Assembly: GCA_900319995.1 (NCBI GenBank)
Contig: ONQO01000019.1
Span: 1 to 36,625 of the forward strand
Length of the DNA stretch: 36,625 nt
Origin: an uncultured Bacteroidales bacterium
GTDB lineage: Bacteria; Bacteroidota; Bacteroidia; Bacteroidales; Paludibacteraceae
Direction of reading: 5' to 3'
The translations under genes were made by a program, and so were the position numbers. Below, in pieces: positions 9,078-29,210 of this stretch. Each line of letters begins with the position of its first letter. Position 1 is the first letter of the stretch. The notes beneath the pieces are model-generated. The model ran no database searches. It was given only the letters and a program-made list of their open reading frames with translations, and was not told the origin of the DNA.

Positions 9078-11090
9078 ATGGATTTGTTTTCAGCAATAGA
9101 AGAACCTGAACGCGAGGAGTTGAAACGCCTGCGCAAAGAACTGGAGGAGGCGAACTACAAGTACTACGTACTGAACATGCCTACTCTATCCGACCGTGAG
9201 TTCGATGAGAAAATGCATCGTTTGCAGGAGTTGGAAGCGCAGTTCCCGGATATGTTTGACCCGAAGTCTCCGACACAACACGTGGGTTCCGACTTAGGCA
9301 AAAAGGGGTTTGAACAGATTAAACACAAATACCCGATGTTATCTCTCGCGAACAGTTATTCGCGCGAAGAGATTGAAGATTGGGTACGTAAGTTGCCTTC
9401 GAACGTAGAAATTGTCTGCGAACTCAAATACGACGGGCTTTCTATTTCGTTGTGGTACGAGCACGGTGTTTTGGTTCGGGCGCTGACACGAGGCGATGGT
9501 GTGCAAGGCGATGACGTGATAGCCAACATCAAGACCATTCCTTCCATTCCTTGGCGAATTGAACGAGATAATATACCGGAATTCTTTGAGTTGCGAGGCG
9601 AAGTGTTGCTGCCATGGGAACGTTTTGAAGCACTTAACAAAGAACGCGAGGAACAGGAAGAACCGCTGTTTGCCAACCCAAGAAACGCCGCTTCGGGTAC
9701 GCTCAAGTTGCAAGACCCGCGCGAAGTGGCACGCCGTGGACTGGACGCATATCTATATTATATGTTAGGCGACAATTTGCCGGGTAAGACCCATTTTGAG
9801 CGGCTGGAGACCGCCAAACAATGGGGTTTCCATATATCGGACGCCATCAAAGTGTGCAAGAACGTCGATGAGGTCATGGCATATATCGCTTATTGGGACA
9901 CGGAGCGCAAGAACCTGCCGGTAGCGACCGATGGTATCGTACTGAAAGTGAACGACTTGACACAACAGGAAGAACTTGGTTATACCGCCAAGACGCCACG
10001 CTGGGCGATAGCCTATAAGTTCCCCGCAGAGAAACAGTTGACCCTGCTCAAGGAGATTACTTATCAGGTCGGCAGAACGGGTGTGGTGACGCCTGTTGCA
10101 AATCTTGAACCGGTACAACTGAGCGGCACGATTGTACAACGCGCCACGCTCCATAACGAAGATTTCATTCGCTCGCTCGACATCCGTCCGGGTGACAAGG
10201 TGTGGGTGGAGAAAGGTGGAGAAATCATACCGAAAATCACGGGTAAGGAACAAAGTGACGAAGTACAAAGTACAAAGGATTTTTCGTTCCCGGACATTTG
10301 TCCGGAATGTGGAGCGAAATTGGTAAGAGTGGAAGGTGAGTCGGCATGGAGATGTCCGAACGAAGCAGGATGTCCGCCGCAGATCAAAGGCAAGATTGAG
10401 CATTTCGTCTCACGCAAGGCGATGAACATCGACGGACTCGGAGAAGAGACGATTGACCTATTCTACCAAAACGGTTTACTGCGTAATATAGCAGACATCT
10501 ATGATTTGAAACTGGAAGACATAGCCGCACAGGAACGCCTTGGCGCGAAGTCTGCGCAGAATATGTTAGCCGGTATTGAGGCATCCAAACAAGTGCCGTG
10601 GAGCCGTGTACTCTTTGCGCTCGGAATCCGTATGGTGGGAGAAACCACCGCCAAGAAGATTGCCCGCGTCTATAACACGATTGACAGCCTCCAAAATGCT
10701 ACCGCTGAACAACTATGCGCCATCGAAGATGTCGGACCGCAGATTGCGGAGAACATCGTTGCGTACTTCAACGACATGCGGAATCTTGAGATTCTTGCAC
10801 GTCTTCGTCAAGCCGGACTTCAGTTTGAAGGCGAAGCAGCCGAAGGACCGAAATCCGATAAATTAGCCGGGATGTCGATTGTCATTAGCGGCACGTTCAG
10901 CTATCACAGCCGCGACGAATACAAAGCGATGATTGAAGCCAACGGCGGTAAGAATGTAGGTTCGGTCAGCAAGAAAACCTCTTTCATCCTTGCCGGAGAA
11001 AACATGGGACCGGAGAAACGGAAGAAAGCGGAAGCACTCGGTATCAAACTCATGAACGAAGCAGACTTCCTGCAACTAATCAGCGGTTAA
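9078..11090 (+). CDS. ligA: NAD-dependent DNA ligase
   Basis: The 670-residue protein is full length. It seals nicks with NAD+ during replication and repair. Visible parts are the N-terminal Ia domain, adenylation motif KYDG with active-site K117, the OB domain around 320-400, a zinc finger with C408, C411, C426 and C432, helix-hairpin-helix repeats ([31 protein letters not shown]), and a BRCT domain from about 592 to the end. An in-frame ATG 30 bp upstream would overlap the preceding gene and add ten non-conserved residues. [11 protein letters not shown] matches family N-termini better. There is no clear Shine-Dalgarno, as usual in Bacteroidetes. The last codons already belong to the 11-bp repeat that follows. 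Confidence 0.98.
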
Positions 11091-11192
11091 TCTGCTGCTA
11101 ATCCGCTGTCAAACACGATAGATATACGATAGATATACGATAGATATACGATAGATACACGATAGATACACGATAGATATACGATAGATAAC
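11076..11192. repeat. 11-bp tandem array after ligA
   Basis: Seven near-identical units GATAGATAYAC run from 11117 to 11192 (the last ends GATAGATAAC). The same 11-bp register continues upstream with diverged units: CTAATCAGCGG (11076-11086), TTAATCTGCTG, CTAATCCGCTG, TCAAACACGAT. The first units include the final ligA codons and stop, so the periodicity crosses the gene boundary. The array ends 18 bp before the start of the DUF6913 gene. Confidence 0.9.
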
Positions 11193-11209
11193 CGGAACTT
11201 CTACCTGAT

Positions 11210-29117: not shown

Positions 29118-29127
29118 CATATAGCTA

Positions 29128-29210
29128 AATCAGACTAGCGAGACACTATCGAGACACTATCGAGTCGAGAGTATCTCGAGAGGATTTCGAGAGGATTTCG
29201 AGAGAATATA
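29128..29210. repeat. 11-bp phased CGAGA array
   Basis: CGA recurs at 29139, 29150 and 29161, then shifts by 5 and continues at 29166, 29177, 29188 and 29199. Units are CGAGACACTAT (two), CGAGAGTATCT, CGAGAGGATTT (two) and CGAGAGAATAT. It fills the gap between the OmpA-type gene and the next start. Confidence 0.88.

Follow-up and report, generated by a model that had tools for sequence, protein, structure and literature searches.

Short tandem arrays with units of 7, 8 and 11 bp recur between the genes of a Paludibacteraceae genus, and some 11-bp arrays belong to dispersed elements

Introduction

Gaps between genes in a 36,625-nt contig of an uncultured Bacteroidales bacterium (Paludibacteraceae; GenBank assembly GCA_900319995.1, contig ONQO01000019.1), which we refer to throughout as the window, hold short tandem arrays whose units are 7, 8 or 11 bp long and differ in sequence from gap to gap. 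How do unlike sequences come to share so few unit lengths? The original prediction, made from the letters of the window, saw a shared length rule with free sequence and proposed behind it either an activity duplicating DNA in 7-, 8- or 11-nt steps or a spacing-dependent DNA-binding protein. We found the unit-length observation to be real and genus-wide, and at least some of the 11-bp arrays to be parts of dispersed composites at unrelated loci, one of which, E1, occurs in many species; the proposed interpretation is supported in part.

The window is contig C70 of a metagenome-assembled genome (MAG; G000) of 2.61 Mb in 143 contigs, 87.7% complete. Its own-genome sample comprised at first 385 kb and later 630 kb (the window and 40 stretches), and was biased in that 13 of the 20 stretches of the first batch lay on contigs with matches to the heptamer TTGAGAR and four of the second were chosen for matches. 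The congener sample (673 kb, 14 genomes, 40 stretches, six of them on contigs listed by the TTGAGAR search) was drawn mostly blind to repeat matches, as were the LigA neighbourhoods of named MAGs; the closest named LigA relatives are at most 91% identical, and the MAGs are labelled Bacteroidales or Paludibacteraceae, several being rumen-derived. Genomes are given below with the prefix G and loci with the prefix L.

Results

Unit lengths of intergenic arrays

Arrays of the window were scored against 600 kb of third-order Markov sequence built from intergenic DNA of the same genome. Eight gap arrays of 7, 8 or 11 bp had been claimed; six have no equal in this null, and the two at 6757-6796 and 15600-15631 are within chance.

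The excess of the three periods was not confined to the window. Intergenic arrays in the first 385 kb numbered 39 at 7 bp, 20 at 8 bp, 8 at 9 bp, 11 at 10 bp and 30 at 11 bp, with 0.0-0.2 expected for each, so that the predicted excess at 7, 8 and 11 bp over a Markov null was found; the 10-bp arrays were short (2.0-3.3 copies), several of them of the type AATTGTYTTY. When arrays of at least three copies were counted in the 630 kb, there were 50 of 7 bp, 19 of 8 bp, 6 of 9 bp, 3 of 10 bp and 30 of 11 bp, every other period from 2 to 30 bp being represented at most three times. The same count in the congeners gave 30, 5, 6, 1 and 11 for periods 7 to 11, and 11 of the 14 genomes carried some 7-, 8- or 11-bp array. 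None was present in the 80 kb sampled from G028; G004 and G027 also lacked all three periods, but their samples were only 6.4 and 5.2 kb. Among named MAGs, with all copy numbers counted from score 10, periods 7 to 11 occurred 27, 16, 0, 0 and 10 times at 27 close LigA loci and 16, 3, 2, 1 and 9 times at 53 distant ones, and the arrays are thus not peculiar to one assembly, a possibility that would have undone the prediction.

Beyond the family we sampled 592 kb, taken from 40 genomes that belong to the same order, class or phylum; these contained seven 7-bp, five 8-bp and two 10-bp intergenic arrays of at least three copies and no 11-bp array of that size, while 50 kb of Escherichia coli contained no such arrays (gene calling in these samples was trained on one stretch at a time and is rough). 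We found 11-bp arrays of at least three copies in this genus and at the distant LigA loci L129, L136, L146 and L150 (59-75% LigA identity), which are labelled Bacteroidales, Paludibacteraceae or Bacteroidota.

Perfect two-copy duplications, counted outside the arrays of at least three copies, showed a broader excess over the Markov null. It amounted in the own genome to 10, 18, 9, 6, 6 and 4 for lengths of 6 to 11 bp, and in the congeners to 23, 11, 11, 7, 1, 1 and 5 for lengths of 5 to 11 bp. Because this excess is broad whereas the spectrum at three or more copies is sharp, the length rule sharpens as arrays grow. An earlier statement of ours, that two-copy duplications follow no length rule, was dropped: a score threshold had hidden most 7- and 8-bp pairs, and the excess is broad with 7 bp strong. 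In coding DNA the two-copy duplications have lengths that are multiples of three; of the 7-bp arrays classed as coding (35 in the own genome), many probably sit in spurious open reading frame (ORF) calls.

The dispersed elements E1 and E2

Two of the 11-bp arrays of the window are parts of larger composites.

29128..29209, plus strand: E1 copy, AATCAGACTAG CGAGACACTAT CGAGACACTAT in 11-bp steps, then CGAGT as a 5-bp half step and an 11-bp CGAGAGNATTT-like tail
11076..11190, plus strand: E2, three 11-bp steps CTAATCAGCGG TTAATCTGCTG CTAATCCGCTG overlapping the ligA 3' end, followed by ATAGATATACG seven times

The array calls within them, 29165-29204 (inside the claimed 29128-29210) and 11115-11190, both of 11 bp, have no equal in the Markov null. 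The E1 copy begins with AATCAGACTAGCGAGACACTA; the stop codon of an OmpA-domain gene lies 10 nt before and the gene at 29223 lies 95 nt after. With up to two mismatches allowed, the 21-nt start pattern AATCAGACTARCGAGACACTA gave 47 copies, 0 to 10 per genome, spread over 15 of the 41 genomes searched in the genus, the own genome included, while the reversed pattern was found in none. Aligned copies read AATCAGACTRR - CGAGACACTAN - CGAGAGAGAAN - CGRRT - CGGRGNNATNT and onward, that is, three 11-bp steps, a 5-bp half step and an 11-bp tail that varies between copies. The conserved head spans about 42 bp, and the window's copy has the second step again as its third.

The head of E1 follows a same-sense stop by 3-10 nt at 9 of 24 distinct loci. 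These represent six different gaps, L327, L329 and L330 being the same gap in three species and L336 and the window the same gap in two. Of the remaining loci, four lie in frame within genes, one lies 25 nt after a short ORF, and ten have other contexts. The E1 frame continues open into the next gene in L329 and L330, and at five loci a long frame is open on the minus strand, with its upstream edge 7-71 nt leftward. In-frame copies occur in rnr (L324, L325, L337, L349 and L350, among them two read in G004 and G015 in addition to the 24 loci; by coordinates there is also one in G031), where E1 falls inside the RNB domain of the RNase R-like product, and in ileS (L326), where it lies between the catalytic and the anticodon-binding domains. 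A different 11-bp unit, resembling CGACACGGACT, occupies the rnr linker of G022, where 2.3 copies were called, and that of G035, where it was seen by eye. Eleven was the top autocorrelation period of the linker in 7 of 10 species (four with E1, three without; no null was made). The exceptions were G061, an E1 carrier, and G006 and G021, in both of which 11 ranked second.

No terminal inverted repeat or palindrome was visible by eye in the aligned copies, and at the 29223 gap divergence between occupied and empty sites hides the exact borders of E1. A structured RNA was considered and rejected, the z-scores of single-sequence folds against mononucleotide shuffles (-3.6 to +2.0) being inconsistent. 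The window contained one transfer RNA and nothing else at the Rfam gathering threshold, and none of the hits at E <= 5 in ten E1 loci lay over E1. Four of these were DUF805b motifs (RF02914) in three loci: L333 1429-1463, L323 1558-1592 and 2052-2086, and L343 312-346. Another repeat, 112-114 bp long and present in 4 of 41 genomes, was observed at L338 (G032) and at L342 and L344 (G000 contigs C54 and C109). It begins with the CCAAATCAGACTGG of E1, stands directly before E1 at four of five places, is tandemly doubled in L344 and resembles a structured RNA; L344, which alone among the three loci was scanned, gave no match to Rfam.

Both parts of E2 recur, in the same order and antisense, on contig C83 of G000 (L343; 83.5% identity over 91 bp) beside an E1 copy. 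The array part alone was found with nhmmer at L184 and, in a congener, at L231.

Diversity of units

The unit census covered the own-genome and congener stretches, the named loci and the window, coding or not, and a named locus may duplicate a sampled genome. It gave 94 canonical units in 191 7-bp arrays, 31 in 43 8-bp arrays and 55 in 67 11-bp arrays. These numbers rule out a single unit family behind the three peaks and bear out a length rule with largely free sequence. The accompanying claim, that units are unrelated and no dispersed family is involved, holds for this diversity and fails for recurring families, among them E1 (29128-29210), E2 and TTGAGAR.

The TTGAGAR three-unit pattern matched 213 times in the own genome (reversed control, 0) and 0-23 times in each of 36 congeners (reversed control, 0-4 each); the TTGAGAR array at 18111-18235 is a blow-up within this species. 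The order of A and G at the degenerate position was not shared between loci beyond shuffles in 26 arrays, so these are not evident copies of one another, and array-to-array copying was discarded on this ground. The 120 cross-locus matches of TTGAGAR flanks involve few loci and look like adjacent 7-bp arrays.

An 8-bp family, CGTNATNA, whose core is ACGT, is identical to its reverse complement; we found it at 11 places (35 matches over both strands, 0 in the reversed control). The unit GTTAAATN, present in G002, L151 and L080, was tried as a phylum-wide unit and rejected, its three-unit pattern matching in G000 alone of 61 genomes, with three reversed-control matches. The published TAACTGA unit was met, as the rotation AACTGAT, in 2 of 191 7-bp arrays (G017 and G019) and in none of the own-genome sample. 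A further dispersed family surrounds 11-bp ACCATACCTAG at L035 17579-17712, L045 554-699, L049 10260-10427 and L190 8468-8619; here 146-168 bp around the array are alike at 77-88%, in long gaps of the own genome among the matches listed.

Position of arrays and orthologous gaps

We compared array positions over 425 gaps, 15-1000 nt long, that separate well-scored genes of the own genome and the congeners: 7- and 8-bp arrays avoid divergent gaps and 11-bp arrays do not. The former numbered 49 in co-directional, 11 in convergent and 3 in divergent gaps, the latter 12, 1 and 8 (Fisher p = 0.0005); for 11-bp arrays taken alone the divergent excess relative to gap length gave p = 0.056. Co-directional 7-bp arrays (n = 34) start at a median of 7.5 nt after the upstream stop, and some overlap it.

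Two further arrays of the window, both without equal in the null, were compared with orthologous gaps.

16298..16341, minus strand: 11-bp array, GTTAGTTATTA four times in infC/rpmI sense, in the infC-rpmI gap
18111..18235, plus strand: 7-bp array, TTGAGAR 17.9 times, starting 2 nt after the stop of the gene at 17185-18108 and upstream of a SurA-like gene

Orthologous loci were read in 17 of 30 cases fetched for the infC gap, 30 of 30 for the SurA gap and 13 of 30 for the gap before the gene at 29223. The infC-rpmI gap held 11-bp arrays of differing units at six of the 17 loci, E1 at one, a 7-bp array at one and no array at nine; GTTAGTTATTA itself is repeated four times in the window, five times in G035 and six times in G026, which are whole-unit steps between species. 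A conserved block, AAGTCGTARGGCYTACCTT...GGCTGCCTGAGACT, stands before rpmI in this gap (L272-L274, L283 and L285) and resembles a ribosomal-protein leader; the corresponding block of the window had no Rfam match at the gathering threshold. In front of the SurA-like gene a 7-bp array was present at 3 of 29 readable loci, with 17.9 copies in the own genome, 2.7 in G035 and 3.7 in G021. The 29223 gap is 17-21 nt long and free of arrays in G030, G061 and G004 and is 105 nt long with E1 in G000 and G021; G036 has GTTATCGGTCC 5.6 times, and G034, G035 and G031 have long gaps with no called array. Behind ligA (38 loci) we found 8-bp AAATGATG (L095), 7-bp TTGAGAA (L104) and AATTAAG (L101), 11-bp TCGAGCCATTC (L113) and many loci with no array.

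Other arrays of the window

4314..4345, minus strand: 7-bp array, AAATAAC in nifJ sense, 14 nt upstream of nifJ
4346..4366, minus strand: 8-bp array, TTTCGTGA 2.6 times, adjoining the 7-bp array of the nifJ gap
4372..4451 (4372-4396 and 4413-4451), minus strand: two 11-bp arrays, TCGATAACATA and TCTCGANNNNN, in the nifJ gap
6062..6086, strand not given: 7-bp array, ATTTATG 3.6 times, no equal in the null
21663..21690, plus strand: 8-bp array, AAAATTAG 3.5 times, overlapping the end of the gene at 20317-21678 (AmpG-like), no equal in the null
6757..6791, strand not given: claimed 8-bp array, GTTAAATT-like, 0.24 expected by chance per window
15597..15618, strand not given: claimed 8-bp array, TATCGAAA-like, 0.92 expected by chance per window

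The last two are no better than chance under the Markov null per window. The nifJ gap holds 7-, 8- and 11-bp arrays adjacent to one another, that at 4413-4451 resting on array calls and not on Markov scoring. Elsewhere in the window, the OmpA-domain protein contains a Lys/Glu/Ala-rich coding repeat with periods of 27 and 54 bp (26903-27249), and a gene on the minus strand (6220-6755), RuvC-like as judged from its sequence, appears to be split by a frame change near 6516, which may be an assembly error.

Discussion

The explanation that we favor, tentatively and at slightly less than an even chance, has two layers: simple sequence repeats that grow by slippage, and a spread of 11-bp composites resembling that of miniature inverted-repeat transposable elements (MITEs) and Rickettsia palindromic elements (RPEs). 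In the first layer, tandem duplications of about 5-11 bp, and a few longer ones, are in excess in gaps and would grow by slipped-strand copying; those of three or more copies have units of mostly 7, 8 or 11 bp, and the 7- and 8-bp arrays settle in post-stop spacers. Judged from comparisons between species, the 7- and 8-bp arrays appear to behave as slippage repeats, species-private and variable in copy number. Mismatch repair is described in PMC4060949 as efficient on loops of 1-3 nt and poor on longer ones, which sets a lower bound only; the absence of very short units would follow if loops above 3-4 nt escape it. The helix may also play a part (11 bp as one turn, three times 7 as two turns, four times 8 as three), though this is no more than a suggestion. 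In the second layer, composites such as E1 and E2, with a fixed order of differing steps, would be copied as wholes and moved in trans by an enzyme, as miniature elements are, and survivors would be filtered for tolerated places.

Both layers have published counterparts. The earlier remark that no named system does this was too broad in one respect: prokaryotic long simple sequence repeats with units of 5-11 bp have a literature. Heptamers are the commonest of them (Mrazek 2007, as reported in PMC4679880), and the same report mentions a proposed relation of the 7-nt length to polymerase contact. According to PMC12699852, a subset of repeats of 6-9 bp is enriched in prokaryotic phyla, with high repeat density in Bacteroidota. 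Our arrays resemble long simple sequence repeats, as described in PMC4679880 and PMC4060949, in having units above 4 bp with heptamers commonest, and slippage with weak repair of long loops has been proposed there; our arrays also exceed the lengths that genome composition predicts, as judged by the Markov nulls. They are unlike them in the sharp triad of 7, 8 and 11, the rarity of 9 and 10 at three or more copies, and the presence of 11-bp units in composites. The whole-unit differences at one gap (four, five and six copies, in different species) may reflect slippage. The TAACTGA heptamers of Beggiatoaceae, Cyanobacteria and some Bacteroidetes (PMC4679880) likewise form gap arrays near gene ends and starts, with 7-nt length steps between related strains and repeat-free gaps in relatives, but use one fixed unit, whereas here there are many units and also periods of 8 and 11 bp. 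E1 shares with RPEs and MITEs (PMC10969869) small size, dispersed copies at unrelated loci and in-frame insertion into some protein genes; RPEs are palindromic and about 150 bp long, whereas E1 joins a conserved 11-bp-stepped head of about 42 bp to a tail that varies, and neither a palindrome nor a terminal inverted repeat is evident in it. Variable-number tandem repeats of Burkholderia pseudomallei (PMC1853098) are also mostly intergenic, and 36.3% are duplicated elsewhere, mostly as motif without flanks, as TTGAGAR is; their units are mostly 6-9 bp, and no 11-bp class is named in the part of that source we could consult. A literature search thin on subscription journals found no description of the 7/8/11 triad or of E1, and to that extent the remark stands.

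Several points weigh against the two-layer explanation. Slippage alone gives no reason for 9- and 10-bp arrays to be lacking, and among the two-copy duplications of the congeners 11 bp is already ahead of both these lengths; slippage would also be read here from unit steps between species and not from differences within strains. As to E1, 10 of 24 loci are neither clearly post-stop nor in frame (the stop being sought in the E1 sense only), the rnr copies could be one old insertion inherited by descent, and neither a mobilising enzyme nor a terminal repeat nor a target-site duplication was recognised, a transposase search not having been made. The 67 arrays of 11 bp contain 55 distinct units, most of them sighted once, so that dispersal has been demonstrated for only part of the families. 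The gene calls, moreover, were made within this analysis.

A single dedicated activity that measures 7, 8 or 11 nt, such as a polymerase or a templated repeat synthesiser, is in our view unlikely, though it survives best among the alternatives. It would account for the infC-rpmI gap, where 7 of 17 loci have 11-bp arrays or E1, with five unrelated units besides E1, and for the prominence of 11 in the rnr linkers. At two copies the evidence for duplication in 7-, 8- or 11-nt steps is divided: 7 bp is strong and 11 bp stands above 9 and 10 bp in congeners, but the excess is broad, extending to 5, 6, 9 and 10 bp and depending on the sample. Moreover E1 and E2 appear to spread as whole elements.

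We regard it as improbable that the arrays are RNA-level spacers, acting after stop codons in operon translation or messenger RNA stability in the manner considered for TAACTGA heptamers (PMC4679880). The close spacing of 7-bp arrays to the upstream stop would suit such a role, as would the orientation of TTGAGAR-type arrays in co-directional gaps (same sense in 6 of 6) and the surplus of A over T on the sense strand (26 of the 33 arrays that differ). However, 26 of 29 readable SurA gaps manage with no 7-bp array, and single-sequence folds of E1 were not consistent. A shortage of C on the sense strand, once considered as a rule for 7-bp arrays, proved to be an effect of pooling letters and vanished when each unit was counted once (15 vs 11, p = 0.56).

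We think it similarly improbable that the arrays are a class of selfish or tolerated DNA for which one machinery makes or copies 11-bp-stepped, helical-turn elements of unrelated sequence and inserts them time after time into a common set of tolerant slots, with the 7- and 8-bp arrays as its shorter-stepped products. The slots, as part of that same improbable proposal, would be positions after stops, before ribosomal-protein leaders and in in-frame protein linkers.

Ribbon-helix-helix proteins bind contiguous repeats of 7 bp (omega), 8 bp (MetJ) and 11 bp (ParR). This set coincides with ours, and the arrays might be operator tracks of such cooperative DNA-binding proteins; the self-complementary CGTNATNA with its ACGT core, found at 11 places and not at all in the reversed control, and the relative frequency of 11-bp arrays in divergent gaps would fit. 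We nevertheless hold this to be very doubtful. The ribbon-helix-helix test consisted of PF01402 (RHH_1) alone, which matched in a single genome of the 21 searched in the genus, one other than G000 (87.7% complete), while the control was positive in 8 of 14 well-known genomes; the units are too diverse for a few regulators, and E1 also lies inside rnr and ileS. Ribbon-helix-helix operators as the cause of the three periods were set aside as unsupported, and the spacing-dependent DNA-binding protein of the original prediction gains no support from this one family.

Chance, low complexity or misassembly is extremely improbable, for although two of the eight claimed arrays are within chance and the genome is a fragmented MAG, the Markov nulls are exceeded and the same periods occur in 11 of 14 congeners and in named MAGs.

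A length rule of this kind, sharpening with array growth, would offer a direct handle on how bacterial tandem repeats expand, in which the gain and loss of 7-, 8- and 11-bp arrays against those of 9 and 10 bp could be measured. E1, in turn, supplies additional stretches of peptide in RNase R-like proteins and in isoleucyl-tRNA synthetase, and provides a natural experiment in the entry of noncoding repeats into proteins.

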